This document shows, piece by piece, positions 551 through 59,883 of a stretch of 64,000 nt of DNA. The position numbers and the translations under genes are program-made. Below the pieces are notes generated by a model that worked only from the letters and a program-made list of their open reading frames with translations, was not told where the DNA came from and did no database searches. The DNA is from Hysterangium stoloniferum (lineage: Eukaryota; Basidiomycota; Agaricomycetes; Hysterangiales; Hysterangiaceae), in the NCBI GenBank assembly GCA_015178975.1, contig WHVD01000239.1, positions 1 through 64,000 of the forward strand, given 5' to 3'. The first letter of the stretch is position 1, and each line of letters begins with the position of its first letter.

Positions 551-736
551 CTAGCACAGCTCCTGATTGCCAATGGGTTCACCGGTCATATAATGCGGCA
601 AATGTAAGAGTGGTAGCAGGGATGGGTATGTAGGCAGGAAATTGTCAATATGAATCGTCGTTGGATTCTCGATGGCATCCAACGGAACAGAGAATGCAAA
701 TAATATAAGAGCGAAGGGCTGAGTAAGCGTAGTCAT
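551..736 (-). CDS. Divergent small secreted-peptide candidate (61 aa)
   Basis: This is an ATG-started 61-codon ORF. Residues 4-18 are strongly hydrophobic (TLTQPFALILFAFSV), which fits a signal peptide, and a short proline- and leucine-rich tail with one C-terminal cysteine follows. The stretch ENPTTIHID can be aligned by eye with ATPTCVIID or TTPNLVIIND in the type A peptide genes elsewhere in the window. It sits upstream of the 1-105 repeat just as the 47.96-kb gene sits upstream of the 48.7-kb copy. It lacks the GGPG motif of the other members. It may be a divergent or decayed member, or a chance ORF. Confidence 0.35.
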   Translation of the reverse strand: MTTLTQPFALILFAFSVPLDAIENPTTIHIDNFLPTYPSLLPLLHLPHYMTGEPIGNQELC

Positions 737-1555
737 TTTTAGAGAAATTTGGCCGAAGACGCTTTGATCATGTCGTCGGGTTGGGTACTATTGTAATGTG
801 ATGATGCCACTGGCATGGATCAAATACTGCAAATGAGGATCCCTATTACGGTACCTAGAATTCTAGTAGTCATCATAGATCGGGGGATGAATCATAGGTG
901 TGGCATCTCAAACTAAGTCCATAATTGCCCTGAAATGCAGGTATTATGCGCATCAGCACTCATTCTTTCTTAGAGGTGATCAATCAACGCAGACTTGTCA
1001 AATTCATATCACAGTGAGGACCGTTAGCCATGTATCCCAGGCAGATTTAATTATTTCCGGCATTTCACAGCAAACAATAGGTGTAGCGTTATTGCACCGA
1101 TGTCAGCGACGTTATGCAGTGACAAAGAAATTCATCTTAATCATAAGGTTGTGAATATCACCATGACTCAGACCAGAGATTTATATTCGGATCTAGTTGA
1201 TGGCCACATTGTGTTTTGAATACAATGTGCCCTGTAAGTCTCCGAGATCATTCAAAGGACCAATACAGAAATACATATTAGTGCGTACACATTCAACAGG
1301 CTATAAAGGATTCAATCGACCATCAGACATCAATAATGAACTGTTCAGTCACTGTTACATAACTGTAATGTCCAGAGAGAGATAGTGTTTCTATGTCAGA
1401 AGGCAGTTTGAATTTGTGAATCCATTGGCAGCCACAAGTTGAAGTTACACCTAGTGTTCTGTTGGTTCGTATTGGGAGGAAATATATCTATATTAATCCC
1501 CAACCGTAGCCATTACAACGAGAGTATTTTTTTCCATTTAGCCGCACGAGGGAAC
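737..1555. other. No recognisable gene
   Basis: Short ORFs exist here (for example 900-1154 and 1197-1385, plus), but none has a recognisable motif, splice structure or relative in the window. I see no repeat or promoter I can defend. Confidence 0.5.
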
Positions 1556-1725
1556 CGAGAAACAAACTCTGTGACGTCCCAATTCTACCTCTTGAAGGTG
1601 GCACAAGAGGGAAGTCGGGCAACCAGCGCAGGCTTGTTTTTACAATATACACAAGCTATTTAGTACAAGATAAAGACAACGGGAAAAAGGCAAAAAGAGC
1701 AGATAAAAGAGGTATGAGGGGTTCC
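1556..1725 (-). pseudogene. Decayed type B small-peptide gene
   Basis: On the minus strand the sequence around 1645-1570 matches the type B genes at 17638 and 47963. The frame reads LPDFPLVPPSRGRIGT, compared with RPDSPPLPRSGGRIGT in the intact copies. The N-terminal hydrophobic part (about 1725-1660) is only vaguely preserved. The GGPG terminus is lost and the frame is disrupted. It lies inverted relative to the main array, next to the 551-736 ORF. Confidence 0.6.
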
Positions 1726-2600
1726 TTGGGCTAAACAAAATAGTACATCTCGTCAGTAGTACATCGTCAGTTCTTCGAGGTATAAACTGCAAGCGTTCTG
1801 AAGTCAATTGCGTCCAGATAGTCTAGTCTGTACAAAGGTCAGTCACGGATAGAATAAAGCACGATGGCTTCTCACAAAATAATCCTAGAGCAGATCATCC
1901 GGAACGGATAGAGGAATGAGACTGAATGGTAAATAAGTTGGTTGGACACAATGGCTAACGGCTGAGTATAAACGAGAGTTCGTGACAGTGAATTGAGGGA
2001 CCAACAACTCACACTTTTGTCGCTTGCAAGGAATTAATATCCGTTCTGACTGGTATATAAGGATGTGAACGATTTGAACTGTCTTTTGTCCTGGAATGAC
2101 GTCTGGTCTGTAACAATAAGCGGTGTTAGAGACAGTGATATAAAGAAATAATACTGTACATACACCAGTCATTACGGATTGATCCATCGTTATTCGTTTC
2201 ACGACACTCCATGGATCCAGGACGTCTGGGAGAAAGTGGCCAGCAAGCCTCATAATCAACAAAGTGTGTTGGAAGAGTGGAATCAGGGCTTACATTTGCA
2301 CATCCAGTCGCACTTCCTCATCGTGGCCCGTACCGTCTCACAACACAGGATCATAAACGATCTGACTTACTGACTTCTTAGACACCAAGCTGTGCAATGT
2401 AGGTTAACGACGTAGGTGGGAGTTACGATGGAAGCGACGGGCTTACTATATCCTCAAACACGAAAATTAGCCTTCAGAGCCCCACCTCAAAATAAGAAAG
2501 GGACGAAATAAGATGCACACATTAAAAATGAAGAAATAAAGACAAAGAGAGAGAGAGAGAGAGAAGAGAAGAGAAAGCTGAGAAGGATAGGGAACTCCTT
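1726..2600. other. No recognisable gene; GA-rich simple repeat near 2545-2580
   Basis: A 125-codon open frame on the minus strand (1885-2262) has no recognisable domain, and antisense frames overlap it. A purine-only GAGA tract runs at about 2545-2580. I do not support a gene here. Confidence 0.45.
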
Positions 2601-2628
2601 TATTTGTGCCTCTTCCCACCCTTTTTTG

Positions 2629-5600
2629 TCACCGGCACCGGTTTAGCCTTGCGCAGGCTCGGAGCTGGTGTAGGGGGGGGGGGAGTTCGTCCTGGAGGTG
2701 CTCGGACGCAGGCGGTGGCGATAGCGGCAGCGGAGACGGAGACAGAGGCGGCGCGACTGCACTCTGGGGCGGTTGGGACAACCCTTCCGATATCTCGTTA
2801 TGAAAACTCGGATCTGGTGTAGGGAGTTGGAGTTCGGCCTGGAGGTCCTCGGACGCAGGCGGTGGCGGCAGCGGAGACGGAAGCAAAGGCGGCGCGCCCG
2901 CACTCTGAAGCGGTTCATGAGATAATTCTTCCGAGATTTCGTGATGAAACTCACCAGTGGGACAAACAGCGACGGTGCAGCGACCCTCTCCATCACTGGT
3001 AATGGATGTGAGAAGTATGTCGATGCCGGCCGAGAAGTCTATATTTTTATTAACAGAAATCAATTTTTATGTCTTTCGGGAGAAAGCTTTATCAAAGTAA
3101 CTTACCAAGGCCGAAAGGTCCAAGGTAGGGCGTTTTTTTTGGGGAGTGCCACTAGCATGCCTCATATTGCTACGCCTTCTTCCAGGTCCAGTCATATCCG
3201 CAGCAGCTTGCTCGGCAGAGGAAGTGGTCGGTAATACAAACGCCGAGTTTTGGCTTCCATTCACGATCCTTTGCTTTACGGGAACGTTAATAACATGGTC
3301 ACGACCGGCTATGTGAAATTTCACTCACAAGTTCCTCCACACTAGCCGGAAAAGTGTCCTTGTCCTTCTCGTGCTTATCTTTCTCATCCTGAACCTTTTG
3401 CTCGGATTGAAGCCTGCGCGACACGAGATATGATAATGACAAAATAATCAAACCGAAGCAATACCTACTCAGGATGGTCCATCTGATCCGAGGAGTCTTC
3501 AACCTTTGTAATAGACACCACGGAAGAGTCGTTGGTAGGCTTGAAGGAGTCAAACTGCTGCTTGCGCGCATTAGCGCCATGTTAACGGAGAGCTACACAC
3601 ATGTTGACTTACAGGAGTCTCCATTTTATTCAGGAACAAATCCATGGCTTCCACGAGACCCCCAACACTGAAACGTGATAAGATGGTGAATATTAAATTT
3701 GGGCGTGAAGGACACCTACGGAATAGACTTCTGCCCATCGTCAGACCTGTTGACTTGTGATTATATTGCTGTCTCTTGGGATAGAAGTGAATAAACGTTA
3801 CCTTATCAGCGTCTCAGGTCTCTTGTCACCACTGAGTTGTGCAGACGCCGGAATCAATCCTGCTATATGGAACGCAAATGTTAGTACTTCATAATGAAAA
3901 GGAAGTCGAATTAGCCACCTTCTGCGGCTTGCTGTTCATAAATCCTGTCATCATTTACCAAAGTCGTGTCACCACTGTCAAAAGACGAGTCGGCCTGACA
4001 TGGTACGTCGGAGTCAACGGATGCAGTTATCGGGAGCGTCGCCGATGGTGCCACAGGCATGTCTGCAATGATCGTGCGTTCGGATAAGTTGTGATGAAAA
4101 TCATAGGAAATATTGATGCACAACGAACCAAATGCCTCGACCTGAAGATCTTTCTCACCGCATGTGACCGGAATACCGCCTACGGAGATGTCTACCCCCG
4201 CGTTAGCCGATGTCGTATCACCACTGTCTAGGGGGGAGTTGGCCTGACTTGAAAAGTCGTGATGAGCCTATGTACTTGGTAAAAACGTCACTGGTGGAGC
4301 CGCAGGGAGGGAGAGAGGAATGGGATTGACAGCGTGATCTTCAAAAGTAATAATATTTTAAAGTAAGTGTACGATAAAAATGATGAAATATGCTGCACGA
4401 ACCTGGAACCGCATCACTGGATCTGTCATGGTGCTGAACGTGACCCTTCTGCACAGTGCCGTTAATATCCGCCGTATGTTCTGCATTCATGGCATCCAAG
4501 GACTTTGCTGGGTTGACCTGTGCGTGACCGCTGCGGTCATTCGCAGCGGGTGCACCACTACTCCTGACCGGAACACCCACATCGGCAGCATTGAGTGTTG
4601 TTACTGCCGCCATAGGAAGCTTCGCGTCTTTGTTCTCTGACCCCGTCCTTAACTCCACCGACGTGGTGACGGCAAGTGATGGGGAAGATGAAATGGTCAC
4701 GGTCACTGGGACGGATGACGCGATGACAACGACAGCTATCTGTTTAAATAGTAGTCTTCCCAGACGTCGCAGCAAGACATGTACAATGACAGTGAGTACC
4801 ATGAATGCAATCACGCAACACACAAATGTAAGAAATGCGGTGCGAAACGCCGAAACATGGCTGGATTAATTCAGAATCAATCAGCAAACATTAAGTATAC
4901 GTGAGTGCCTAAAATCTCACCGTCTCTTGAGCTCAGGACAGACAGTCTCCTCGATGTGTTTGACCAACACAGTTGGGAACTGGGCGACGAGTAAGCTCCT
5001 CTTTCCCATGTAATCGTTGAGCGTAATCATTGTCCCAAGGCTTTCAGTCGCGAGGGGATACAATCTGTCAAAAAGAACACTTGCATGAGCACGAGATAAT
5101 ATTTATGGAAAGAGGAACTGTGACTCACACATCGCCATAACAGACAACATGCAACGAGCGTGTGAGGGTATTATCGGGAAGCAGGCGAACCGACCTCCTT
5201 GCCTCATTAAGATCAAGGCCGAAATCGAAGAGAAACCTACACGCAGTGAACATGCTGGAGAAGATGTTGTACCTCACATCAGTGTCGATACCAGGAAGCC
5301 TCCCCTCCAACGCGATGGACAATCCCGTCATCTTGTCCAAAAACCCAAGTTGCCATGCTGCAATCAAGTGGCGGAGAAGAAGAGAGAACAACGACCGAGA
5401 GACCAGAAGGGATGTTGTGGCGAAGGAGGCCCTATGGCGAATGTAAGTATAAGTGGCGGTGGCGGTGGAGAAGGAATGGGAAAAATGCTTACGGCGTTGA
5501 TAGAACAATATCTGTCAACATCATAGACAATATGGCCCCAATGCGAGGAGTCAATGACTCGATGAGGCCGACCCCCAACATATATTTGTGAGAAAAAGTG

Positions 5601-5743
5601 CCACCACGATCCCGATGAGGACCGCGGCGGGTTTGATGGAACGCAAAGGATCCATCGATTTGTGGAAGAGGTGGAGGCGGTTTGTAAGATAGGTTTAATG
5701 GGGGGTGATACTGGTTCAGAGTAGGTGGAGAATAAGGCTGCAC
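2629..5743 (-). CDS. Multi-exon probable membrane protein with repetitive C-terminal tail; one in-frame stop
   Basis: I can join about 12 exons with GT-AG introns of 50-67 bp in consistent frame: 5743-5493, 5431-5129, 5064-4921, 4860-4403, 4338-3919, 3862-3802, 3746-3720, 3667-3613, 3557-3469, 3413-3329, 3273-3106, then 3038 down to about 2629. The first half holds hydrophobic segments (LLVSRSLFSLLLRHLIAAW, then VCCVIAFMVLTVIVHVLL), suggesting a membrane protein. The tail is acidic and proline-rich with internal repeats: SxxDSGDTT twice, and FHHxxSE-type segments three times. TAG at 4268-4270 interrupts exon 4338-3919 although the same frame stays open afterwards. It could be a nonsense mutation, a sequence error, or the true end of a shorter protein. 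An alternative N-terminus (MDPLRSIKPAAVLIGIVVAL) lies one frame away before a G5 run at about 5570. I do not recognise the family. The last exon boundary is uncertain. Confidence 0.6.
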
Positions 5744-5749
5744 CTGTGA

Positions 5750-5864
5750 CCCATGTTATAGCTCCGTGAGCCCAATGAAAGAATGGAGCAGAGGCACAGA
5801 GGGCTGGGAGCGAACATATCACAAATGCAGTTGAAGGATCCTGCCAGGATGAATGCTCGATCAC
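5750..5864 (-). repeat. Sequence shared with 57948-58070
   Basis: The minus strand here reads ...TTTGTGATATGTTCGCTCC and continues with about 100 bp clearly matching the plus strand at 57948-58070. Both copies translate to FVICSLPAL(C/H)AS(A/T)PFF, so either an old coding piece or an element fragment has been copied. It abuts the 5' end of the membrane-protein gene. Confidence 0.55.
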
Positions 5865-6045
5865 TTGATGGCAGAGCTTAAAAGGGGAAACATTCTTATT
5901 ACAAAAAATATCTATGAATGGAATTAGTCCGCTCCAGTATGCTAAGGCATCTCTGAGAATATTTTCACTATTTTAGGAAATTTATTTGATCAGTTATAAA
6001 ACATTTAATGGGAATTATCAAAACATTGGGACAGTTTGTCACCCA
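5865..6045. other. AT-rich spacer, nothing recognised
   Basis: This is an intergenic AT-rich stretch between the membrane-protein gene and the decayed peptide gene. No coding or repeat signal is visible. Confidence 0.5.
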
Positions 6046-6540
6046 CTGTCCCCTCTACTAGCTCCCAGTCTCATTCTCCCCTTCTCATTATCAACGATCC
6101 TGCTGATACTCAAAGCACTGGCTCATAGTATTACACCCATCAACCATTAAAAGAGTTTCATACTAAGATTGGGGACCAGGTGGTGGGCTATCTAACCAGA
6201 TATGAGCAAATGAGCATGTAGGTTATGAATAAAGTAGACTGTCCATGACCTAACTGATTGCATGATTTCACAATGGCATTAAATAATATAGATAGTGAGA
6301 TAGTGAGAAGGTGGTGTGCTCCGTGATGTGCACCGTGGAAATTACAATGTATAGCTTTTACTCCTTTTTTTCGGGGTTTTTTTACAGACTAGTGCTTGGA
6401 ATAAATTTATGTCTACCTAATTATAAGTTGGATTATGTGAGCTAGTCAATTATAGTGTTGAAATAATCTGGCGCTGCTCTCAAGACAAATTAACTTTCCG
6501 TTTGAGAGAGTGAGAGGACATTAACCCGTTACAAATTGAT
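6046..6540 (+). pseudogene. Decayed type A small-peptide gene with its 3' flank
   Basis: The segment aligns with 16310-16700 and 46990-47390. It keeps CATTATCAACGATCC, ACTCAAAGCACTG and GGACCAGGTGGTGGG (the coding sequence of the GGPGGG motif), followed by the shared 3' flank with TGTCCATGACC and AACTTTCCGTTTGA. The start codon and signal-peptide part are unrecognisable, and in-frame stops occur (for example TAG after the ACTGGCTCA stretch). The relic is followed, as in the intact pairs, by sequence from upstream of a type B gene. Confidence 0.7.
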
Positions 6541-6689
6541 GAGGGGAATATTACCCAGTAAACCGGTTGCAAATACGGTCAAACACCCTCGAATGCTTTC
6601 GAGCCCCTTACAGCTCGCAAACCTAAATCCTCAATATCTAATATAAAGCTTTGTGCTTGGAATCCAAATTAAAATTGGTGTTTGGTCGT

Positions 6690-6990
6690 CGACCGGTTGG
6701 GCATGCGGCAGACGACTATGTAATAACACCGCTTCACCACAGCGCCCTCTGATAGGAGCTCGGAACCGTGGCGGCCGTGGAGTCACCAGCACTAAACTTA
6801 ATGTAAGAGAAGAACAGGTGAGACAACACATATTAAGTTTCCATGAAGGCAGGTTTTTGACACCTCAAACATATGACATTTCGTATTCAGACATAGACTC
6901 AACCGCGATCTTTGATATCTGTTGCTATTATAAAACAGGCCATTTTAACAAGGAATATTTAAAAATTCCTATTTGGACACATCTGATTGA
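6690..6990 (+). pseudogene. Relic of the region upstream of a type B peptide gene
   Basis: This matches 17340-17510 and 47690-47830, which precede the intact type B genes. Shared blocks include ATGTAATAACACCGC/ATGTAACACCGC, CACCACA, GTGGCGGCC and CAACCGCGAT. The coding part itself is not recognisable downstream. Together with the 6046-6540 relic this shows that an A-B pair once stood here. Confidence 0.5.
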
Positions 6991-8362
6991 ACTGAAAATA
7001 TTCGGCGGTTTACTGTAACAGGGCGGTCGGCCTTTATCATGAGAAGAGATCGTTTGAACAGCCACCAGTAACGATGTCAACAACATCTCAATAGTGAGGC
7101 AGAGGCAGCTGTGCGGCCTTCACTGGTGCTGTATGAACTGAACTGTTCCGCATAGCATGATTATTTTGGTAGACTGGAGATCACGGATATATAGGAGGAC
7201 GTGGAGAGACGTATAATGTATTGAACCTATTAGTCATGGCAATGTTCTCCAAAGATAAAGGACCTTACCACAGGAGCGTGCTAGAACATTCCATTTAGAG
7301 TTTTGAGGGGTTGACTGTAAAATCCGGTAGGAGGAATGTTGGATATGGACGATGTTGCCACCCATTTCCGACTTTACTTAATATCCACGCATGCAATATT
7401 CCAGGAGAAGCTCATTTCTCTTCCATAACTTTATCTTAGCTTGTAATCCTCTTCTACATGTAGTCCATCTGCTATTTCACATATCCCACAGCAGTTAAGA
7501 CCTGTATTTACACATGATACAGTGCACCATAGCTGCACTAGCACTTCCAGCATCTTAATTGATCTCTCTCTCTCTCAGTCAGGGAACATGTTCAAGGTAA
7601 TATATAAGTGACATTCACACAAGTTAGATACCATCCCCACACATGTTGGGTTTAGAGAGCCACCCTGCCCCACAAAGTGTTTGTATGAGGCCATTGTTTG
7701 TCAAGAAGTGCCAGTCATGCCCTGTCACCCAAATAGTGTGATTTTTACCTCAACATAACCCTTTCTCAGCATGACAAAATGCCCCAGTTCTATGAAATAT
7801 ATGGAGGCTCCACTACACAAGGCCCGAATGCCTGACGTTCAGTGCAGATTGTCGTTATTGAATTGAAAAAGACAGACAATAGTTTGGGGAGCGCAACATG
7901 GATAACACGCATATATCGTGTCAAACGTCTTACAAAGATGGATGTCGTCTTTTCATGTTTCATCGACCTACTACTGAAGGCCACGATCCTTCAGGTCTCT
8001 CAAGGTATCACAATTCCGAATGAAACCACCTTGCATTTCTGCATTAATAGACTGATGACCTGTTCGGCGGGCTGCCGCTAACAACGAATGTAAGTACAAC
8101 CGACAACACATGGTGTAAAGTCACTTTATACTTACGACCTATACCTACAGCGGGGCTTACAACTTCAAAGAGCCCTACACTCTATGCGAAGTATAATCAA
8201 GCTCGAGAGGTTTCTTGTTGTCCAGAGACAGGGGATGAACGGACCCATCTTGAGCATCCCTGTCATAATGCATCCGACAATGTTCCCGATGTTGGGTGTA
8301 CCGTACCAGAAAGCGCGGTACACATACCCTGGTCCTATTCTTGCCATCAAGCCGGGAATCTT
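6991..8362. other. No recognisable gene
   Basis: ORFs of 60-80 codons occur on both strands (for example 7842-8081 plus, 8165-8350 minus) without motifs I recognise. A GT-AG intron-like segment is possible near 8089-8150. A CT-rich tract sits near 7563-7578. Confidence 0.4.
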
Positions 8363-8461
8363 ATGTTAGAATATTGCAAGCTGTTGAAAGTGCTCACAGT
8401 CTGACTACACTCAGCTATTTAGTACTGTACAGTAGCTTAGTCATCACATGTATTTAGGTAG
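8363..8461 (+). repeat. Direct repeat, copy 1 of a duplicated segment (copy 2 at 10041-10195)
   Basis: TTAGAATATTGCAAG through TATTTAGGTAG is nearly identical to 10046-10141. Copy 1 continues after the LTR insertion at 9132-9187 (GGGACTTTGTCATCCCCTC), where copy 2 is contiguous (10142 onward). Copy 2 is therefore the unoccupied version of the site interrupted at 8462. Confidence 0.85.
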
Positions 8462-9131
8462 TGTCACAACCGTCACATGTCACATATTGTCACAAACATT
8501 CAAAGGTAACTTTTGACAACTCTTCGACCTATCAAATTCAACTTGACAAAACTGAACATTATTCGACACCATCGAATCTCTTTCGACTTGTCTCATTTCG
8601 ACTTGTCTCATTTCGACTTGTCTCATTTCGACTTGTCTCATTTCGACTTGTCTCATTTCGACTTGTCTCATTTCGACTTGTCTCATTTCGACTTGTCTCA
8701 TTTCGACTTGTCTCATTTCGACTTGTCTCATTTCGACTTGTCTCATTTCGACTTGTCTCATTTCGACTTGTCTCATTTCGACTTGTCTCATTTCGACTTG
8801 TCTCATTTCGACTTGTCTCATTTCGACTTGTCTCATTTCGACGTCATATATGATTTCATAATTAGTTCATAACATAGTCATAATGATATGACGAAAAGCA
8901 TAAAAGGGCTACGAAAGGAGCGAGGGAAGTCAGTCAAAATATCTGTATATTAGTGATATTAGTAATCTATCTTGTCGTAACTTCTTCGACAAATACTTCC
9001 GTGAGTTCTCATGACTGGTAAAAGCCTCTTACTTCATTGACAGGGCGAATATATACTTCGTCGAATGAGGCTTTCGAGTTCGATTAATAGAATATTATTC
9101 AACTTTTTCGAAGAATAATTGATTCGTGACA
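8462..9131 (+). mobile_element. Solo LTR, 670 bp, with TSD GGTAG
   Basis: The element starts TGTCACAACCG and ends TTCGTGACA, so it has TG...CA ends with a short inverted repeat TGTCAC/GTGACA. GGTAG is present on both sides (8457-8461 and 9132-9136). The duplicated segment at 10046-10195 shows the empty site with a single GGTAG. No internal coding region remains, so this is a solo LTR left by recombination. It carries the 15-bp tandem array in its middle. Confidence 0.85.
8581..8835 (+). repeat. Minisatellite, 17 perfect copies of a 15-bp unit
   Basis: TTTCGACTTGTCTCA is repeated 17 times without a single difference; a partial unit TTTCGACGTCAT follows, and degenerate TTCGAC pieces precede it. 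Because 15 is a multiple of three and the unit contains no stop in several frames, long artificial ORFs arise on both strands (repeating SFRLV or EMRQV). They are not evidence of a protein. Perfect identity implies recent expansion or homogenisation inside the LTR. Confidence 0.97.
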
Positions 9132-9186
9132 GGTAGGGACTTTGTCATCCCCTCACCCACAAAATCCCATTGCATATTCTTACAGG

Positions 9187-11870: not shown

Positions 11871-11920
11871 CACAGTATATAAAGAGTTCTCGACAAGGAA
11901 GTCTCTCATAAAACCATAAG

Positions 11921-11995
11921 ATGCTAATAACACGTCTCGCCGTCATATTTGCCATCGCATTGCTTGCGATGGTGCTATTACCTGAGGGTCACTGA
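11921..11995 (+). pseudogene. Truncated type B small-peptide gene (24 codons)
   Basis: The frame MLITRLAVIFAIALLA matches MLPTSLAVLFSIALLA of the intact type B genes, then diverges and stops after 24 codons. The proline-rich segment and GGPGTGV tail are lost. The promoter region is preserved: TATAAA at 11878-11883, GAGTTCTCGACAA and CTCTCATAA leader blocks correspond to those before 17638 and 47963. The signal-peptide part may still be expressed, but the mature part is gone. Confidence 0.75.
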
Positions 11996-14135: not shown

Positions 14136-14142
14136 TATAAAT
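14136..14142 (+). promoter_or_regulatory. TATA-like box of type A gene
   Basis: TATAAAT lies 95 bp upstream of the ATG at 14231. The equivalent TATAAGT at 19928 lies the same 95 bp before the paralogue at 20023, with the sequence between almost unchanged. Confidence 0.6.
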
Positions 14143-14230: not shown

Positions 14231-14497
14231 ATGACTTTGCTGCCATTCATCATCCCCGTGCTTTTGGCGGTTTTGGTCTTAAGCAGACCCACCAAGCACA
14301 ATGATATTGAACAGACAACACCGAACCTGGTCATTATCAATGATAATTCTGCTACTAAAAGCACTGCCGCCTATTATTATGACCACGAACCGCATTTATT
14401 AAGAGAGGTTCCTGATTTAACGGGAGGACCAGGCAGTGGGCCCTCTGACGGTAACCCGGTACGTTATACTTCAAATGGACCTAAGCCATTCTATTGA
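14231..14497 (+). CDS. Type A small secreted peptide (88 aa), GGPG motif
   Basis: This is a single-exon ORF of 88 codons. Residues 3-19 (LLPFIIPVLLAVLVLSR) form a signal-peptide-like hydrophobic helix. A hydrophilic region follows with LVIINDN, an AYYYDHEP block, a TGGPGSGPSD motif around residues 68-77 and the tail SNGPKPFY. It has no cysteine, no N-glycosylation-rich region and no CaaX end. The ATG is chosen because all type A copies share ATGACTTTGCTGCC at this point and a conserved leader directly before it. The closest relative is 20023-20274. Its role is unknown; a secreted peptide or peptide precursor is an inference. Confidence 0.75.
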   Translation: MTLLPFIIPVLLAVLVLSRPTKHNDIEQTTPNLVIINDNSATKSTAAYYYDHEPHLLREVPDLTGGPGSGPSDGNPVRYTSNGPKPFY

Positions 14498-15299: not shown

Positions 15300-16233
15300 A
15301 CTGCGTCGTCTGGTCGAAGAGCAGTTTGGGGAGTGAATAGAGAACAAGATAGGTCGTCGTGCAGTTTATTTTGCAGTGCGTATTTAAATTGGCATGAAAT
15401 AATGAAATGAAGGTTACTAGTATTTCGCATACTGCCTGTCCTGACGCCACAATGGTGATGGGGATTTCTCTATGCGGCTAAGATGTTTGTGGAGAGGGGG
15501 CTGACCAGTCCTGAGCTGTACTAGGGTATCTGCTCCATCGGTATACTTACCGGGGATGTACCCAGGTACTGACAACACACCCACTAATATTGTCCTGCCA
15601 ATACTAGATATTTTCGCAAGTGTCTAGGGGAATTTCAACGACACAGTTACAGCTACTGATCTTGATTTCGCTGAGAGAAGTCTAAGACTTGGATCTACTG
15701 AAAGGAATCAAGTGATATCGGAGTGGGGCTGCTAGTTCCACAACTGAATGGTTTTTACAGGACGGGCGCACTCACTCTTTAATAAACATCATAATCCCAC
15801 ATTTTTAGCTCTTTATTTTATGACTAAATATCCCATAAATCAATGTTGCGTGAGTCTTTCTAAGCAGCAGAGCGTACCATATTTTTGGACCCATTCTATT
15901 CACTAAGGAAAATTGCACATAATGAAGAGATACCGTCTATGCCAAGGGAAGCTTGGAGATCTGATGTTCAGACTTCATCCGGGCGATAACTAAGAAAAAT
16001 CTTAGTCGGAAACTCCTTGATAAGAAGCACAGTCTGTTGAAATAATCGGTACAGTTGTTGTTGGCAGGGGGTGGGACATCATATATGCCTTTTGAACACT
16101 GCCCAACAACCACTACGTATCACAGCAATGCTGATATAAGTATAAGTCAGAGATCACCCTTTAGTGCAAGGCATAAAACTTCTCACAGACGCATCCTCGA
16201 GCAACTAGCTCTTGGACAGACTACTCACATATC
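15300..16233. other. Upstream region of the A-B gene pair, shared with 46240-46920 from 15553
   Basis: From GGGATGTACCCAGGTACTGA (15553) the sequence is colinear with 46238 onward. I see no gene. TATAAGTATAAGTCAG and GGCATAAAACTTCTCACAG (about 16136-16185) are the promoter-proximal blocks of the downstream type A copy. Confidence 0.6.
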
Positions 16234-16456
16234 ATGACTTTGCTGCCTCATTATCCCCACACTTTTAGTGGTGGTCTCAAGCAGACTTCTCCAGGACAAT
16301 CATATCGAGCATGCAACACCGACACTGGTCATTATCAACGATCCCCCTACTACTCAAAGCACTCCCGCTTATTATTACGATCCTGGTTCAGTAAAGAAGG
16401 TTGTTGACACTGATGGTATTGGAGGACCAGGTGGTGGGGTGACTAACGAGCCATAA
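16234..16456 (+). pseudogene. Type A small-peptide gene with 2-bp deletion in the signal peptide
   Basis: The ATG (16234) and leader are intact, but CTGCCTCATTATCCCC lacks two bases relative to CTGCCGCTCATCATCCCC in the copy at 46923. This shifts the frame after four codons. Downstream the original frame stays open to the stop at 16454-16456, with TLVIINDPPTTQSTPAYYYD and GIGGPGGGVTNEP preserved. Translation from the true ATG gives an unrelated short product. The loss must be recent, because the rest is nearly identical to the 46923 copy. Confidence 0.85.
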
Positions 16457-16732
16457 AGACGGGCATGTAGGTATCATTAAAGTTGACGTCCATGACCTGG
16501 CTGATTGTGCCACAAAGTGATCGAAGAATATCCATAAGGAGAAGGCAGTGGGGGGATAATGGTGATGTAGATTTTCTAGAGATTTTTTGGAATAAAATCA
16601 TCAGTTGGGATGATGTTATTTAGTCCAGTATACTGTTGAAGTAATCTGGAGGTATTCTCAAGACCAAATAACTTTCCGTTTGACAGAGTGAAGGGACGGT
16701 AACTCAAGCCTACTATAAGTGTTTGGCATGGG

Positions 16733-17098
16733 TGTAAGCCTGGCCACCTTACCACATATGCCACCATTCCCAACCACTCTCTTTGTTCGACTACTCAAGC
16801 ATTCCTTGTGCCACCACTCAATTATCCTTGACCATTGTTCTCCCATAGACCTTTATTCTCCCTTTCCTGCCACATCTTCTTTGTCTTCAGACACCTTTTG
16901 TTACCACAAGCTTATTGTTCCAATCAGATATAAATATACATTCCACAGTGATAAGAGGGGAATCTTTTTGACCATAAAATCCTTTCCCACTCTTCCCTAG
17001 GGAGCCTCACATTCATCTTGTATCATACTGCTATTAAAATAAAGAAAACTTAGTCCTGTCCGTGTTGACCGAGTGAGGCTGATAACAACAGCCTTTCA
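16733..17098 (+). mobile_element. Solo LTR (366 bp), TSD ATGGG, element Y family
   Basis: The LTR starts TGTAAGCCTGGCC and ends ACAGCCTTTCA. ATGGG flanks it at 16728-16732 and 17099-17103. Unit 2 has the unoccupied sequence GGCATGGGATAGTTGGG at 47424-47440. It is homologous to the LTRs at 21512 and 26673 in opposite orientation. The insertion therefore post-dates the unit duplication. Confidence 0.93.
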
Positions 17099-17592
17099 AT
17101 GGGATAGTTGGGACTGAAGATACTCTAGGCTTCTATGTCACCGATCTGTCTGGCAAAGGCCGAATTCTCCAACTTATCATTTCATCAATTGGCAATTACG
17201 ACCATCAGATAGCTTTACATATAAATATTACCTCACACTGCTCCAGGAAGGTGGAACGAACGGTATAAATTGTAGTAAATTAACATAATTAAATTATAAT
17301 CCTGGATCAGACAGATAGGATTAGGCGTGGGGTACTCGTGCTTCTATTACCATGTAACACCGCCTCACCACAACACCGTGTGATGAGGTTTCGGCGCTGT
17401 GGCGGCCATGGGGTCAACGGCCTCACTAAAAACTCAACCGCGATTTTTTAATAACAGTTGCCGTCAAAATTGGCCCATTTACTACGGAACGTTCCTGATA
17501 CTTCACACTGAAACTAAACTTCGAACTCCCAAGATATTAAAACACCAGTTTCTACCCACACACTTAAACGCTGAGAACGGTATTCCACAATG

Positions 17593-17598
17593 TATAAA
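17593..17598 (+). promoter_or_regulatory. TATA box of type B gene
   Basis: TATAAA lies 45 bp before the ATG at 17638, within CACAATGTATAAAGAGTTC. The same box sits 45 bp before 47963 and 43 bp before the truncated copy at 11921. Confidence 0.65.
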
Positions 17599-17637
17599 GA
17601 GTTCCCCCGACAATCAACTCTCTCATAACATCATAAG

Positions 17638-17790
17638 ATGCTACCAACATCTCTCGCCGTCCTATTTTCAATTGCATTACTTGCGCCCACACTGGCTGCT
17701 GCTGCCTCGCGGCCCGACTCCCCTCCTTTGCCACGCTCAGGAGGCAGAATTGGTACTGATATGATCGGCGGCCCTGGGACCGGAGTTTAA
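17638..17790 (+). CDS. Type B small secreted peptide (50 aa), GGPG motif
   Basis: This is a single-exon ORF of 50 codons. Residues 2-21 (LPTSLAVLFSIALLAPTLAA) read as a classic signal peptide with an A-rich cleavage region. The mature part is about 28 residues: proline-rich SRPDSPPLPRSGGRIGTDM, then IGGPGTGV at the very end. It contains no cysteine. It lies about 1.4 kb downstream of the type A copy at 16234 (1.18 kb before the LTR insertion). The identical arrangement recurs at 46923/47963. The shared C-terminal (I)GGPGxG motif links types A and B. Function is unknown. Confidence 0.75.
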   Translation: MLPTSLAVLFSIALLAPTLAAAASRPDSPPLPRSGGRIGTDMIGGPGTGV

Positions 17791-17899
17791 CTGTGCTGGA
17801 AGTAAGTTGAATAAGCATTCTTTCCGACTAAGTATCCTAATAAACAAACTTCTATGGCTAGTTTGGGCCCATCTCCCCTACGCCAACTCCTGCCGATGG

Positions 17900-18102
17900 G
17901 AGATAATATTAAAGTTTGTAAGTTCAGAATACGCTTGGCTCGGTTTGGGTACTAAGAACGCGTTGCAAACGTATGAAGTGTGTAGTACAAGTACCTAGTT
18001 TAAGTACCTACTACCGGTAATACGATACCCGGTTACCCATCAATCACATGTTACTTTGTTCGCAAACCCAAAAAATCTAATAGATAGGGGACGGGTAGTG
18101 GC
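17900..18102. other. Unit-1-only segment between the type B gene flank and an LTR
   Basis: Unit 2 lacks about 480 bp here (junction near 48233). The part before the LTR at 18103 holds no ORF and no recognised element; repeated GTACCTA pieces occur near 17990-18015. It may be an older insertion or a deletion in unit 2. Confidence 0.45.
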
Positions 18103-18374
18103 TGTTAAATTTGATGATGAAACACACCTTTTTATAGGGGGAGTCCACCAATTATTGCAACTTTTCATATGAAGATGCTAATTGTGGACCATGTATTTGG
18201 AGGTTAATGTGTGTCAGAACCACTATACACCTCCCAGAGCATCCAACCTATATTGTCAGGAGGTGCTACACTAACTGACACAAGATATTGAGACACAAAG
18301 TACTTTTATTACAAGCTTATTAAACCCTTGTATATTGTGTATTGCAATAGAGTCAACTCATACTATTTTTAATA
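18103..18374 (+). mobile_element. Solo LTR (272 bp), TSD GTGGC
   Basis: The element begins TGTTAAATTTGATGATGAAAC and ends TATTTTTAATA, flanked by GTGGC at 18098-18102 and 18375-18379. It is homologous to 21058-21326, which is on the opposite strand with its own TSD. The TGTT start and 5-bp duplication point to an LTR rather than a MITE. The 3' end is not the usual CA. Confidence 0.8.
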
Positions 18375-19927
18375 GTGGCTACAAATCGTTAAATTACATT
18401 TATATAAGCTAGATATTGAAATTTGTTTGGAGGAATTGGTCGCTATAGGCAATATCATTGTCGTTGTCGAGTTTTGAATAGCACTTGGTTTCACATTGGT
18501 GTTTTCTTCTCAGTTGCCTTGTGCGGCTAGAAGAAAAAAACCAATAGATATACCCTCTTTTTAATGGCTACTATCCAGAGTAATATAGACATATTTTCTC
18601 CTGATACGAACCAAAAGAACACTACGATGCGCGACCGAGATTGCATCCCATGGCTGGCAACTTAGATGGTGGTCATTCCAGCGGGTGGTAAGGAGATTGT
18701 GACTCTTCAATACTAGCTTAATATTCTCCATACCAAGAAATAACCCACAGGAGGTACTTTATGGTAGAGAGTTCTACGCTACTAGTAGAGTTATGCGGTG
18801 GGGTGGATTCTTCGTTTTGAAGTGTAAATTATGAGATGGCTCCCTGTCATAGTAAGACTATAGCTGCACTCAGAAGGTCGAGTAGGCATGATTAATTAGT
18901 CACGCACACTTGATTTATTCTGCTTTATTGCAGTCCCTTTGATGATATGTTTTGAATCGCAATAGGTAACCTACCTGTGTTACATTACAATAAGCCTAGT
19001 TCGAGGCGCCGCAGTCTGGACTGATTCTTTGCACCGCCTGGTTCAACAAGAAAACTAAGGCTCCGTTATCGAAGGTGGCTTCCCAATTTTTGCGTCTCCG
19101 ATGTGTTGTACCTCCGCTATGACATCTTGCTCATCTTCTGAAATACAACCGAATAATCCTTGAGTCTTGTACTTACATGACACTTATTGCAACATTGAGG
19201 GATACTCTGTCACCCCCATTGCTTCCAGTGTCTGCACATCCAGTGCTGCCCCGCTTGTCAATTTCGCACCAGATGACAGTGGTAAAGTCGTGCTTCGGGT
19301 TTGGTAAATTTAATACCTGACAGGCTGACGGGCTTGGTGTTTAATCCCGTACACATGATCGTATGAGATAGGGGTGGTATTGATGTTTAATGTCAGCAGG
19401 CTCCGATATCACTGGCTGTCATGAACCCACAACGGTTCTGATTGATCTTTTCATCAATATCAATTGTGGCGCCGGCGCTCAGGCTGAACACCTTAATTTT
19501 AAATGTTTAATGATCCAATTAAAGCATCGTACCACCAATAGGAACCAGCAAGCAATCAACATGACATTCACACAGACCTAATTTCGCTTAATCTTCACAT
19601 GCCCCAATGGTTTACCGTTTCAATTTACGTGTCGCTAATTGAACAAATGAGCCACACTTAGGTCTCTCTACGTATTTTACTAATATTCAAGATACTTTAG
19701 GCTGATATCACCAATATCTCAAGCTCACACTGGATAAATTTGGGTAGATTCCCCATTATATTAAATAAGGAAACCTTGTCAAGTCCCCCTTAAACAGGAG
19801 CACGGCCTTCATGATATTGGAATCTGAGCATTCGTTTGTTGTTGGCAGAACGCGAGAAAGACCAATGCCTGTTAACACGTTACACAGGAGTACTTCCCAC
19901 ACAGAAGCGCCGCCTGTCGTGTCGCAC

Positions 19928-20022: not shown

Positions 20023-20274
20023 ATGGCTTTGCTGCTATTCATCATCCCCGTGCTTTTGGCGGTTTTGGTCATAAGCAGACCCACCAAGCACAATGATATG
20101 GAACAGACACCACCTAACCTGATCATTATCAAGGATAATGCTGCTACGCAAAGCACTACCGCCTATTATTATGACCACGAACCGCATTTATTAAGAGAGG
20201 ATCCTGATTTTACGGGAGGACCAGGTCCTGGGCCCTCTGACACTAAACGGGTACGTTATACTTCAGATGGATGA
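20023..20274 (+). CDS. Type A small secreted peptide (83 aa), GGPG motif
   Basis: This is the unit-2 counterpart of 14231-14497. The N-terminus MALLLFIIPVLLAVLVISR is a signal-peptide-like helix. LIIIKDN, AYYYDHEPHLLRED and TGGPGPGPSD follow, then a dibasic KR and the tail VRYTSDG. The stop comes five residues earlier than in the paralogue because of a small change in the last codons. The ATG was chosen by alignment with the other copies and the conserved leader (CAACCAGCTCTTGGACAGAC). Its 3' flank is cut by the copia insertion 660 bp later. Confidence 0.75.
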   Translation: MALLLFIIPVLLAVLVISRPTKHNDMEQTPPNLIIIKDNAATQSTTAYYYDHEPHLLREDPDFTGGPGPGPSDTKRVRYTSDG

Positions 20275-44078: not shown

Positions 44079-45402
44079 TGTTAAGTTGCGAACAAAGCTC
44101 CACAGATAGTCCCGCAGAGGTTTCCGGTAATTATTCCGAACACACACTTGCTTCCGGGAATTGTCCCATGGAGTCCTCAGGCAATAAGTCCGGGGGAGTT
44201 TCCGGGGATTATTAGTACAAGGGAAGGTGGCATCAGAATAATTACCAGAAAGATATGGCACGGGCTGAGATGGACTTGGCTTCAGCTTATAAGCTGTGCC
44301 CTCGTACACTCATTTGTGTTAGATTTGGAAAATACAATATCTATTAGAATGTCCAAGCTGTTATAAGTCCCTAGTTGGCATCAGTCCAGATGTGGCTGTA
44401 TAAGTCCCAAGGTAGCATCAGAAGGACTTATATAGAATATGTATATATAATCCATAATATCTCACTAGACCAATAGGTCCAGTAGCTCAGTGGTTAAGAG
44501 CACTGCTTATATAAAGCCAGAGGTCCTTGGTTCAATCCCAGGCTGGGTCAATTCTTTTCTATACCTTTAACAATTTGGGTGTCCATATTTCGAGCTGACA
44601 GAATGCAAACAGGAAGATATAGATTCTGGAGTTCCCGTGGGAGTTCCAGGAATTGAGCGTGCAGACAGACAAGAGGACTAGAGACTGTTCAAGGGTCAAA
44701 CTTGTTCGGGGGAAAACTAGTTCGAGATTGAAACTGGATTCTAAGTACATGAATATAGCAGACTTATATAGACTGTGAAATGTAATAATACCAAATCTGG
44801 TATTAATGAGAGGCAGAACTATTAAACATAAAACGAAACAAGTAAATAATAAACTGGGAATTAGGGACGGAATGGAATGGGAGCGGAGAACGAATCATGA
44901 CAGGTCATTTAACCATAACTGGAGCGGGGCTCAGTTAGAGGGGTTCCGGAAGTCCGGTCAGAGTCTGGTGACTTGGTGCACAAGATAGTGTCGGGTATAG
45001 ACAGGTTTGATGTGCAGGAGGTCCGGTGGAGTCTGGTGGGTTTTCTGATGACTGGTGTGTGAGACGCAGAGACAGATCATAACAGGAGCAGGGTTTTATG
45101 CTCTGTTAGAGGGGTTCCAGGAGTCCGGTCGGAGTCCGGTGACTGGTACATAAGACACAGAGTGTCGGGTGTATATAGAGTGGAGTCCGGAGTCCGGTGG
45201 AGTCCGAGGACTGGTGTATGAGACACAGAGGGTTAAGGGTTAGGTGCAGACAGGTGGGGTGCGTATAGAGAGTCAGGCATAAACAAGTTGATGTGCAGGC
45301 TCTGATGGGAACTCCGGTTGTTACTATACAATATAGAGGGTCGGGAGCATGTAGGACGGGGTCTGGGGGCCCAGAGGCTGGCGGGTTTTCTGGTTCCTGA
45401 CA
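44079..45402 (+). mobile_element. Solo LTR of the gypsy family (about 1.3 kb), TSD ATTCC/ATTCT
   Basis: It begins TGTTAAGTTGCGAAC and ends GGTTCCTGACA, flanked by ATTCC (44074-44078) and ATTCT (45403-45407). It contains the family core GATGGACTTGGCTTCAGC and a stretch resembling 39460-39540. It is about 500 bp longer than the other members, and the tRNA-like sequence at 44476 is within the extra part. Confidence 0.65.
44476..44550 (+). tRNA. tRNA or tRNA-derived sequence, anticodon uncertain
   Basis: The acceptor arms GGTCCAG and CTGGGTC pair with two G-T pairs. The D arm GCTC...GAGC and T arm CTTGG-TTCAATC-CCAGG are well formed. An A box (TAGCTCAGTGG) and B box (GGTTCAATCC) are present, and a T-rich stretch follows (ATTCTTTTC). 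The anticodon arm (CTGCTTATATAAAGCCAG) pairs imperfectly, as if one G were missing, with TAT the likely anticodon (isoleucine) if repaired. No CCA is encoded. Its place inside an LTR suggests a tRNA-derived repeat or a captured tRNA gene. Confidence 0.55.
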
Positions 45403-46237: not shown

Positions 46238-46922
46238 TGAAGTGGGGATGTACCCAGGTACTGACAACACACCACCAGTATTGTCTTGCCAATACTAGAT
46301 ATCTTGGAAACTGTAGGGGAATTTAAACGACACAGTTACAGCTACTGATCTTGGTTTTGCTGAGAGAAATCTAAGACTTGGATCTACTGAAAGGAATCAA
46401 ATGATGTCGGAGTTGGGCTTCTGGTTCACAACAGAAAGGCTTTTCTGTTAATTACAGGACGGGTGCACTCACTCTTTAATAAACATCATAATCCCATATT
46501 TTTAGCTCTTTATTTTATGATTCATATCACATGAATCGATATTGCGTGGGTCTTTCTAAGCAGCAGAGCGTACCATATTTTTGGACTCATTCTATTCACT
46601 AAGGAAAATTATACATAATGAAGAGACACTGTCTATGCCAAGGGAAGCTTGGAGATCTGATGTTCAGAGTTCATTCGGGCGATAACTAAGAAAAAGCTTA
46701 GTCGGAAACTCCTTAATAAGAAGCATAGTCTGTTGAAATAATCGGTACAGTTGTTGTTGGCAGGGGGTGGGACATCATATGTGCCTTTTGAACACTGCCC
46801 AACAGCCACTACTTATCACAGCAATGCTGATACAAGTATAAGTCAGAGACCGCCCTTTAGTGCAAGGCATAAAACTTCTCACAGACGCATCCTCGAGCAA
46901 CTAGACAGACTACTCACATATC

Positions 46923-47147
46923 ATGACTTTGCTGCCGCTCATCATCCCCACACTTTTAGTGGTGGTCTCAAGCAGACTTCTCAAAGACAATCATATCGAG
47001 CATGCAACGCCGACTCTGGTCATTATCAACGATCCCCCTACTACTCAAAGCACTCCCGCTTATTATTACGATCCTGGTCCAGTAAAGGAGGGTCTTGACA
47101 CTGATGGTATTGGAGGACCAGGTGGTGGGGTGACTAACGAGCCATAA
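46923..47147 (+). CDS. Type A small secreted peptide (74 aa), GGPG motif
   Basis: A single exon from ATGACTTTGCTGCC. Residues 3-16 (LLPLIIPTLLVVVS) are hydrophobic and signal-like. TPTLVIINDPPTTQSTPAYY, a DPGP segment and GIGGPGGGVTNEP at the C-terminus follow. It is the intact counterpart of the frameshifted copy at 16234. A TATAAGT box lies at about 46837 and a conserved leader (CATCCTCGAGCAACTAG...GACAGAC) runs up to the ATG. A type B gene lies 1 kb downstream in the same orientation. Confidence 0.78.
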   Translation: MTLLPLIIPTLLVVVSSRLLKDNHIEHATPTLVIINDPPTTQSTPAYYYDPGPVKEGLDTDGIGGPGGGVTNEP

Positions 47148-47962
47148 AGACGGGCATGTAGGTATCATTAAAGTTGACGTCCATGACCTAGCTAATTGTG
47201 CCACAAAGTGATCGAAGAATATCCATAAGGAGAAGATAGTGGGGGGAAAGTACCGGTGATATATATTTTCTAGAGATTTTTTAAAATAAGATTATAAGTT
47301 GGGATGATGTTATTTAGTCCACTATACTGTTGAATTAATCTGGTGCTGTTCTCAAGACCAAATAACTTTCCGTTTGACAGAGCGAAGAGACGGTAACTCA
47401 AGCCTACTATAATAAGTGTTTGGGCATGGGATAGTTGGGATTGGAGATATTCTAGACTTCTATGTCGCCGATCTGTCTGGCAAACGCCGAATTTTCCAAC
47501 TTATCATTTCATCAATTGGCATTTACGACCATCAGATAGCTATACATGTGAATATTACCTCACACTGCTCCAGGAAGGTAGAACAAACGGTATAAATTGT
47601 GGTAAATTAACATAATTAAATTATAATCCTGGATTAGACAGATAGGGTTAGGCGCGGGGTACTCGTGCTTCTATTACCATGTAACACCGCCTCACCACAA
47701 CACCGTGTGATGAGGACTTGGCGCTGTGGCGGCCATGGGGTCAACGGCCTCACTAAAAACTCAACCGCGATGTTTTTTAATGACAGTCGCCGTCAAAATT
47801 GGCCCGTTTACTACGGAACGTTCCTGATACTCCATACTGAGACCAAACTTCGAACTCCCAAGATATTAAAACACCAGTTTCTACCCACAAACTTAAACAG
47901 AACGGTATTCCACAATGTATAAAGAGTTCGCCCGACAATAAACTCTCTCATAACATCATAAT

Positions 47963-48115
47963 ATGTTACCAACATCTCTCGCCGTCCTATTTTCAATCGC
48001 ATTGCTTGCGCCCACACTGGCTGCTGCTGCCCCGTGGCCCGACTCCCCTCCTTTGCCACGTTCAGGAGGCAGAATTGGTACGGATATGATCGGCGGCCCT
48101 GGGACCGGAGTTTAA
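47963..48115 (+). CDS. Type B small secreted peptide (50 aa), GGPG motif
   Basis: A single exon of 50 codons, differing from 17638-17790 at only two residues (AASRPD against AAPWPD). It has the signal peptide LPTSLAVLFSIALLAPTLAA, a proline-rich mature part and the C-terminal IGGPGTGV. A TATAAA box at 47918 lies 45 bp before the ATG. Near-identity between the two units, including the flanks, fits recent duplication. Function is unknown. Confidence 0.78.
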   Translation: MLPTSLAVLFSIALLAPTLAAAAPWPDSPPLPRSGGRIGTDMIGGPGTGV

Positions 48116-48480
48116 CTGTGCTGGAAGTAAGTTGAATAAGCATTCTTTCCAACTAAGTATCCTAATAAACAAACTTCTATGGCTAGTTTAGGCCCATCTC
48201 CCCTACGCCAACTCCTACCGATGGAAGATACGCGCAGCGGCTACAAATCGTTAAATTACATTTATATAAGCTAGATATTGAAATCTGTTTGAAGGCTGTA
48301 GGCAATATTATCGTCGTTGTCGAGTTTTGAATAGCACTTGGTTTCACATTGGTGTTTTCTTCTCAGTTGTCTCGTGCGGCTAACAAAAAAAAAGTCAATA
48401 GATATACCCTCTTTTTAATGGATACTATCCAGGAGTAATATAGACATATTTTCTCCTAATATGAACCAAAAGAACACTAG

Positions 48481-55250: not shown

Positions 55251-55289
55251 AAGACAGTGTCCCATTGTATGACTGGAAGATCCACCAGA

Positions 55290-55880: not shown

Positions 55881-55901
55881 AAGCATGTGAAGCATACAAA
55901 C

Positions 55902-57115: not shown

Positions 57116-57947
57116 TGTCAAAATGTAATTTACAACTAGTGAGGTACACATAATTTGGCCAGCATTCTTTGTGAAGGCTCAGATGGCCTGCCAGTCCCTC
57201 ACTTGCACCCATTGCAAAAATTTTCAGTTGCCAGGCTCCGGATTTGCCTGTGGGAATGTGATTACATAAGGTGCTGGAAATAGATGTCATCTACTGGAAT
57301 GGACTAAAAAATTAGACCACAGTCTTTGTAATGGGAGTGTTTTCCCCATTTAAGCTCCACTACAGTGGAAATTTTTCCTGTCACCTTTGTCTCTATTAGA
57401 ATAAAGAAGGGAGGTGGATGTGAGACACAAGAAGTGTGAGAGCTCAGACACAGACACAGACACGAACGAGCGAATGCAAATTTCACCAGCACGCACTATG
57501 GACCCACAATGGTACATAACTTGTAACTACTGTGCCGAGTCACTAAATCTAACAGTCTCTTGCCACCATCATCTGAGTGGCCAGCCCTCAAGGTATTGCT
57601 CACCCTTGCCTTGAGTAGTTTTCTTTTTCTTTGGAATCTCCACCTGGACACCACTAGAGTGGTCCATTCATCCTTTCCAACAGGGGGTTTAGAAAATGGG
57701 TGGTACAGATATCCTTCATCCCTTCTTGAAGTCCATCCTGCCTTTCTATCAAACACCCTGGATCTTTGAACCACAATGGCTTATACTGCACTATACTATA
57801 CCTGGACTTCCTTGTCCCATTGCTGCCACATTCCTCTGATTGAACCATAATGGCTATTATACACCATGCCACCCTTGCTGGCTCATCACTGGCTGTGTTC
57901 CTAGATAATCCAGTGACTCTTTGAAGACACAGCTTCTCTGTCTCCCC
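57116..57947. other. No recognised gene
   Basis: Frames of 60-90 codons on both strands show no motif. The sequence reads like decayed transposon or gene fragments in a pyrimidine-rich context. Confidence 0.4.
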
Positions 57948-58070
57948 CTTTTTTCATCCCAGCAGGATACTCCAAAAGCATTCTTCTTGGTGACATTTGT
58001 GATATGTTCACTCCCAGCCCTCCATGCCTCCACTCCATTCTTCTTGTGGGCTTACTCATGTCCCCATCAG
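57948..58070 (+). repeat. Sequence shared with 5750-5864 (minus)
   Basis: TTTGTGATATGTTCACTCCC and flanks match the 5' end region of the membrane-protein gene. See the entry at 5750. Confidence 0.55.
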
Positions 58071-58262
58071 CATGCTTTGTGCAATGGAGCCTGCAGCCCC
58101 CAGATTCGCTTCCACTGGGGGTCCACTCACCAAATACAGACAGAGACAAAGACTTACTGTAAAAGAGAGTGAAGTGCTTGTAGGATGGAGTCCAGGACCC
58201 AGCAGGTTTTCTGGTCCTAACATCCCTCTGGTTCTGAAAACTCAAAAACAGTCTGTGCTTTC

Positions 58263-58760
58263 ATGGCAAAGCAGAAAATTGCCCACACCAAAATAATCCT
58301 CCATGTTGAGACCTTACAGCTTCCCCATATGTATCATGACAATCCAAAAGGTATTTGGGAAAGCCTAAAGCAAGTCCATCAGACCCATGGTTTTGCTACT
58401 CACCTTGCTCTTCACCATTGTCTTCTCTACATGCAGAAATGCAAGAATCATACAATTAATTCTTGGATATCAGAAGTAAAGAATGCTGCTTACAGATTGA
58501 CTGATTCAGGTACAGACATCCTTGAAGAGGACATCATCCTTACACTCTCAGTTGGCCTCCCAGAAACCTATTCCATCTTCATTGTTGCCTTTGACTCTAT
58601 TCCCCCTGACCAACTAACACTCAACAGTGTCATCACATATCTCATGAATGAGGAAGTGTGCCAAAGGCCTTCTGCTGGAATTCATCCCAACCCAGAGGCT
58701 ATACTCATTGTTCACAACAATGGCAAAGTGGTGAGGCAGTGCAGGTGTGGCAAAAATTAA
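58263..58760 (+). pseudogene. Copia-type gag fragment
   Basis: The frame of 165 codons resembles the gag (UBN2/Retrotran_gag) region of Ty1/copia: AHTKIILHVETL, GIWESLKQVHQTHGFATHLA, the helical INSWISEVKNAAYRL, and LTLSVGLPETYSIFIVAFDS. It ends before any zinc knuckle and no protease or integrase follows within the window. It is a truncated fragment. Confidence 0.7.
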
Positions 58761-59676
58761 TGTTATACAATTTTAGTATCACAATTAAGGTTACCTTTGT
58801 TAATATGCACATTATTCATGTTTTTTTTTCAAAAGTTCTTCGCTTCAAGTATGAGCAGTGCATGAAGGTCTCTGATGATGGCAAATTGTCGAGATGATGG
58901 CATGGCACAATTTCTAGGCCAACTAACACATCATCACTCTAGCTTACATTTCACGAAATGTTTAGTCCAAACCTGAAATCTCTGAAATATTCTTCAATAT
59001 ACCCAGCATCAGCTTAATCCTCCTTAACTTAAGCCTTTAACTCTCTTACCAATCGCACTTAGAATATTCTACCTTGTGGTATATAAATCCACCTATTAGT
59101 AGGTCATTTATAGTTAAGCTGAGTTACAGCTTCTAATATCTACTGTGATTTGCACAAGTTTCCAATACAGTCAACTCAATCACATTAATCTGACTTATAA
59201 ATATATAGAATGGAATCTTGTTGTCAATGAGATCACTGGTGGTCACACGAGTTGACAGGACCACAGTGTATTGTCTAGAACTGAGACAGGATACAGGAGG
59301 TTACAGCATACAGTAAGGAAAGAGAGAGAAAACTACCTAGGCTATATACATGTATGATGTGGTCACATGCCAGAACAAAACGAGTGGAACAAAGGAAACA
59401 AGAAACAAAGGGTGAACACATAACAAAGGAGTGAACACATAACAGGAACAATGAGTGAATGCATAAGACTGGGGCGCCAGGCTTACATAGAACTAATCTC
59501 ATTCCAACCAACATTTAGAAAATCTACACCCCAACAAGATATGGATGGCATTGCAACTCCTACGAAACATATTGGCTCCCTCAAGCTCAACATTTCTTGA
59601 TCACTTTTATGGCCACACATACTATCAGTAAGGTAGTCGACGGTCTACTTGAAGTACGACGTACATGTCCATTAAC
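58761..59676. other. No recognised gene
   Basis: AT-rich sequence with a short AACACATAAC direct repeat near 59415-59445. No ORF with a motif. Confidence 0.45.
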
Positions 59677-59883
59677 TCACTCAGGGACAGGAGTCTGAGG
59701 CCCCACACCTGGTCCCCCAATCGTGTTAGGAATGTTAGGATAGGAGCCGGTGATTTGAGTAGGAGCTGGACTATCGATAATGACACACGTCGGTGTTGCA
59801 TGGCCGATATCATTGTGCTTAGGAAGTCTGGCTAAGATCGAAACTGCCAAAAGCAAGGGTATGATGAATGGTAAGAAAGTCAT
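59677..59883 (-). CDS. Type A small secreted peptide (68 aa), GGPG motif, inverted
   Basis: A single-exon minus-strand ORF. MTFLPFIIPLLLAVSILARL is the signal-like start. KHNDIGHATPTCVIIDSPAP, a short TGSYPNIPN segment and TIGGPGVGPQTPVPE at the C-terminus follow. It is the most divergent intact type A copy, with one cysteine and lacking the AYYYD block. The leader is conserved: minus-strand ACGTATCCTCAGAACAACTA and GTGGACAGACGGTTCACATA lead into ATGACTTT. An ATAAAATA box lies about 85 bp upstream. It lies 11.5 kb from the other copies across CAC2. Confidence 0.75.
   Translation of the reverse strand: MTFLPFIIPLLLAVSILARLPKHNDIGHATPTCVIIDSPAPTQITGSYPNIPNTIGGPGVGPQTPVPE

Follow-up and report, generated by a model that had tools for sequence, protein, structure and literature searches.

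The window, that is, the whole 64,000-nucleotide stretch of DNA analysed here, corresponds to positions 1-64000 of contig C156 in the 111-Mb genome (554 contigs) of Hysterangium stoloniferum, a member of the Phallomycetidae that is described as ectomycorrhizal (PMC7550596). Pieces of gypsy, copia and Tc1/mariner elements and one CAF1B/HIR1-like gene lie inside these 64 kb, together with two types of very small genes, A and B, their decayed copies and part of a linked DUF6533 gene:

14231..14497, plus strand: type A gene, intact, 88 aa, motif TGGPGSG
20023..20274, plus strand: type A gene, intact, 83 aa, motif TGGPGPG
46923..47147, plus strand: type A gene, intact, 74 aa, motif IGGPGGG
59677..59883, minus strand: type A gene, intact but divergent, 68 aa, motif IGGPGVG, lacking the AYYYD block
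17638..17790, plus strand: type B gene, intact, 50 aa, motif IGGPGTG, TATAAA 45 nt before the ATG
47963..48115, plus strand: type B gene, intact, 50 aa, motif IGGPGTG, TATAAA 45 nt before the ATG
16234..16453, plus strand: decayed type A copy, frameshifted after the first codons, IGGPGGG readable in another frame
about 6081..6213, plus strand: decayed type A fragment with an internal stop (earlier listed as 6046)
11921..11977, plus strand: type B leader alone, the remainder lost
1576..1620, minus strand: type B remnant of 45 bp (earlier listed as 1556)
15552..18624, plus strand: duplicated A-B block, three pieces of which are 90-94% identical to 46244-48479
46244..48479, plus strand: duplicated A-B block with matches on C100, C160, C15 and elsewhere on C156
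49230..50037, plus strand: 5' remnant of a DUF6533 seven-transmembrane gene, following the A-B pair at 46.9/48.0 kb

An earlier note on this DNA, made from the letters alone, had listed six intact reading frames (14231, 17638, 20023, 46923, 47963 and, on the minus strand, 59883), and all six are present, each with a hydrophobic leader, as judged by hydropathy, and a GGPGxG motif. The layout ascribed to type A holds for the leader and the motif and fails for the AYYYD block in the gene at 59883; the genes at 14231 and 20023 extend 18 and 13 residues beyond the motif. A hydrophobic leader by itself is not distinctive in the window, where 42 small reading frames pass the hydropathy filter, the six genes all ranking within the top 11. 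Among the five decayed copies in that list, those at 16234, 6046, 11921 and 1556 are real; at 6690 no copy exists, as neither five A/B proteins nor the DNA of four A/B reading frames gave a match there. The divergent candidate placed at 551 has no start at that position, which is instead the end of a 61-aa minus-strand reading frame (736-551). This frame was rejected as a third peptide type: it has no GGPGxG and belongs to the duplicated sequence that flanks B on the downstream side, and its counterpart on C15 lacks the ATG at the matching position. The interval separating A from B was likewise read for a further peptide gene, and no conserved reading frame was found in six stretches upstream of B and five downstream of A.

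The genome as a whole holds, spread over four contigs, at least eight intact genes of type A and at least five of type B, these counts being lower bounds because the genome searches scored the best candidates only:

Type A, intact, C156: 14231, 20023, 46923, 59883 (minus), 74353 (minus)
Type A, intact, other contigs: C15 26661; C100 15754; C160 53362 (minus)
Type B, intact: C156 17638, 47963, 71932 (minus); C15 20969, 28554
Type A, decayed: C156 16234 and 6046; C15 18.7 and 37.9 kb; C424; C82

The type B copy on C100 carries an internal deletion, and the decayed A copies of C424 and C82 are part of sequence that matches the first 8.4 kb of the window with an identity of 99.8% or more. A degenerate codon pattern for IGGPGxG has 18 matches in the genome, 12 of them family members, against four for the reversed control pattern; the family is thus enriched among the matches more than chance would give, and the remaining six, read in frame, showed no leader-bearing reading frame. 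Two copies have public gene models, labelled as hypothetical proteins of Hysterangium stoloniferum (P0001 and P0002). The second exon of the B model P0001 was discarded, its frame being broken in 17638 and 47963.

The two types partly occur together, in six same-strand pairs with A preceding B at a spacing of 1-2.3 kb:

Pairs on C156: 16.2/17.6, 46.9/48.0 and 74.35/71.9 kb
Pairs elsewhere: C15 18.7/21.0 and 26.7/28.6 kb; C100 15.75/16.8 kb

Both members are intact in three pairs and one is damaged in the other three, while half of the eight intact A genes (14231, 20023, 59883 and that of C160) are not followed by a B in the next 2.3 kb. Matches to the 2.2-kb A-B block fall chiefly on C156, C15, C100 and C160; short pieces of it occur on C424, C82, C175 and C207, and its other short matches resemble a small dispersed repeat. 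Being low-copy in the genome, the block is not a high-copy transposon. The C100 sequence is 97% identical to the window over 45.7-48.0 kb and about 89-91% over the following 1.6 kb; judged by such identities, the duplicated blocks are of differing age. The birth and death within one cluster proposed in the earlier note is therefore borne out by intact and decayed copies, A-B pairs and blocks of different age, and segmental duplication among transposons would be what enlarges a cluster that also decays.

Precursors of type A have 68-95 aa and those of type B 50-55 aa. All five B copies have a leader with AAAA at its end, then a proline-rich linker, and R or K immediately before IGTD. The tails that follow the motif in type A vary and show no conservation. 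The sequence common to A and B is (T)DxIGGPGxG near the C-terminus, and a profile comparison aligns the two types over no more than 13 columns, at the C-terminus (E 3.5e-4, with a probability of 37%). In none of the six A-B pairs tested, out of 40 possible, did DNA similarity exceed that of shuffled sequences. With x set aside, the remaining six motif positions show 210 synonymous and 23 nonsynonymous codon changes over the 40 non-independent A-B pairs; between 46923 and 17638 every one of these six codons is changed, each time synonymously. Because A and B are otherwise dissimilar and share the motif through mostly synonymous codons, constraint or convergence at the level of the peptide is indicated; the match speaks for a function at that level and supports, as the best evidence available, the view that these are real genes.

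Measures of selection are less decisive. Pairwise dN/dS ranges from 0.11 to 1.43 in type A (28 pairs, two of them above 1) and from 0.16 to 0.67 in type B (10 pairs), and maximum likelihood puts the ratio at 0.81 in A and 0.60 in B (tested against 1, p is 0.25 and 0.11). By segment, four representative A copies give 0.66 for the leader, 0.57 for the middle and 0.80 for the linker with the motif. The selection on copy number or diversity that had been suggested is consequently not upheld, neither maximum-likelihood value being significantly different from 1. These results come close to a dN/dS near one with no homologues outside the locus, which the earlier note had regarded as telling against the family; the motif evidence and an estimate of reading-frame survival stand apart from this. 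In simulations restricted to substitutions and to intact copies, the probability that four A clades stay open by neutral chance is 0.0055 to 8e-5. Since the averaged dN/dS is weak, the argument for selection is only partly supported. All eight A copies have stops in all five other frames, while at least two of the other frames are also open in four of the five B copies. TATAAA or TATATA stands at -45 in all five B copies; the same scan on type A matched two of eight, at about -95.

These data bear directly on a neutral origin, by which duplicated, non-coding DNA would simply carry the reading frames along and drift would give the semblance of a family. A dN/dS not significantly below 1, the numerous dead copies, the variable tails and the lack of relatives among annotated proteins agree with it. 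Against this, shared DNA can hardly explain why A and B carry one motif in codons that differ mostly synonymously, and the reading-frame survival estimate is low. Moreover, the local DNA matches inspected between distant A copies are centred on the reading frame, spanning 20-122 bases before the start codon to about 110-277 after it. A neutral by-product is accordingly considered unlikely. The reading we favour, with slightly better than even confidence, is that A and B are real but lineage-restricted genes for candidate secreted-peptide precursors, in a cluster under birth and death.

As secreted-peptide precursors, they would each be exported by the hydrophobic leader, and the active part would be the (T)DxIGGPGxG core near the C-terminus, some 7-11 residues long. 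The same core in two otherwise dissimilar precursors points to this segment as the likely active peptide, and we infer that the C-terminal core is their product. In type B, trimming probably takes place at the basic residue before the core. The core would then act extracellularly as a signal or effector; expression, secretion, processing and function are all predictions here. Orphan small secreted proteins are common among symbiotic fungi, and the occurrence of one short core in two dissimilar precursors is unusual among them.

Among annotated proteins no relative of A or B was found beyond the Hysterangium stoloniferum genome, the six window proteins have no match in Pfam, the type A alignment has none in PDB, and a search of plasmids with one B protein, of little bearing here, also gave none. 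A literature search found nothing on GGPG in fungal secreted peptides, and among the titles listed for broad peptide and receptor topics none concerned this family.

Several known systems resemble the A/B genes in part. Like MiSSPs, these are small, leader-bearing, apparently species-restricted genes of an ectomycorrhizal fungus; unlike them, they present one motif across two otherwise dissimilar precursors. They could be candidate host-directed symbiosis effectors, mycorrhiza-induced small secreted proteins acting on tree roots. The lifestyle of the species, the frequency of species-specific small secreted proteins among symbiosis-induced genes in the published account (PMC7550596) and the position of small leader-bearing genes within a TE-rich cluster favour this possibility, which we regard as rather unlikely. 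Like KEX2-processed repeat proteins (KEPs), they also combine a leader with a short peptide core, in an agaricomycete. The A/B precursors, however, have one core each and no consistent dibasic site flanking it, and the single core rules KEPs out. Dikaritin-type RiPPs are defined by a UstYa (PF11807) gene in the cluster; none of the 17 UstYa matches in the genome falls on C156, C15, C100 or C160, the four contigs with A/B genes, and this class was also ruled out.

The basidiomycete mating pheromone/STE3 loci also offer a likeness, as tiny precursors are clustered near a 7TM gene, but the 7TM gene linked to A/B has a DUF6533 domain. Basidiomycete lipopeptide mating pheromones are defined by a C-terminal CaaX. 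Twelve of the 13 intact A/B proteins lack Cys at -4; the type A protein of C160 ends in CATK, which is no usual CaaX, and this tail is not common to the other copies. With no usual CaaX in A/B, and with all 15 STE3 exon matches on C553, mating pheromones were ruled out. Several STE3 pheromone-receptor genes are clustered at C553:189684-199876, presumably the mating-type receptor locus.

The 7TM neighbour is a spliced gene on the same strand, downstream of B, with PF20151 scores of 48.6 bits on C15 and 44.5 bits on C156 (curated cut-off 24.1). Four full-length copies were examined: on C15, on C156 (68-70 kb), on C100 (inverted, near the pair) and on C424. In all four, exons 1-4 are open with GT-AG introns, and their pairwise dN/dS is 0.51-0.81 (six pairs). 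For the 3' half no clean gene model was found, and the hand-spliced protein has no annotated match at 1e-5, so the A-B-linked gene may be decayed. A domain of the same kind occurs in SNB1 of Coprinopsis, a predicted 7TM protein; its description leaves open whether it serves as receptor, channel or transporter (PMC10949477). In the A/B cluster DUF6533 belongs to the neighbouring gene and not to the peptide.

This arrangement raises the question of a peptide-receptor cassette, in which A/B peptides would be candidate ligands of the downstream DUF6533 protein, co-inherited in the manner of pheromone and receptor. The order A-B-DUF6533 and its strand are kept on C15, twice on C156 (once with a remnant) and on C100 (with a remnant); among the eight closest DUF6533 copies (at least 88% identity), seven lie on contigs with A/B or the same duplicated segment (C15, C156, C100, C424, C82, C175 and C207), the eighth being a fragment on C464 with no A/B or duplicated-segment sequence within the 8 kb read. 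The domain score and the four open, spliceable exons also favour a cassette. However, the linkage goes back to one ancestral event copied by duplication, and two of the copies adjoining A-B pairs (in the window at 46.9/48.0 kb and on C100) are 5' remnants, in addition to the unmodelled 3' half. DUF6533 is hugely expanded in this genome (at least 150 matches scored among 402 candidates), often in arrays, e.g. on C542, C24 and C535, and a single ancestral adjacency is therefore weak evidence; by our own arithmetic, in a post hoc test, chance adjacency is about 1-4%. A different DUF6533 array, sampled over 10 kb, has four small reading frames that pass the leader filter, none convincing. We consider a ligand-receptor pairing of A/B with DUF6533 very unlikely, and slightly less likely still the more specific proposal of a new kind of cassette, in which A and B, though dissimilar, would both supply one IGGPGxG core to an adjacent candidate DUF6533 receptor. 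If true, the DUF6533 7TM family, large and unexplained in mushrooms, would gain its first candidate ligands.

Other features of the window concern its flanks and repeats. Positions 1-8424 are 99.8-99.9% identical to stretches of C424 and C82, and the first 5.9 kb are 99.8% identical to the end of C175, which suggests haplotypes or a very recent duplication. The near-identity to C82 and C424 ends at 8424, shortly before a 15-bp minisatellite (8577-8842, 17.8 copies, 99%). A tRNA-like gene at 44476-44550 was given no anticodon by ARAGORN and is also a tRNA according to Rfam. From 61323 to 64000, an AT-rich minisatellite with the 10-bp unit TAGATTCAGA, in about 268 copies, reaches the end of the window.
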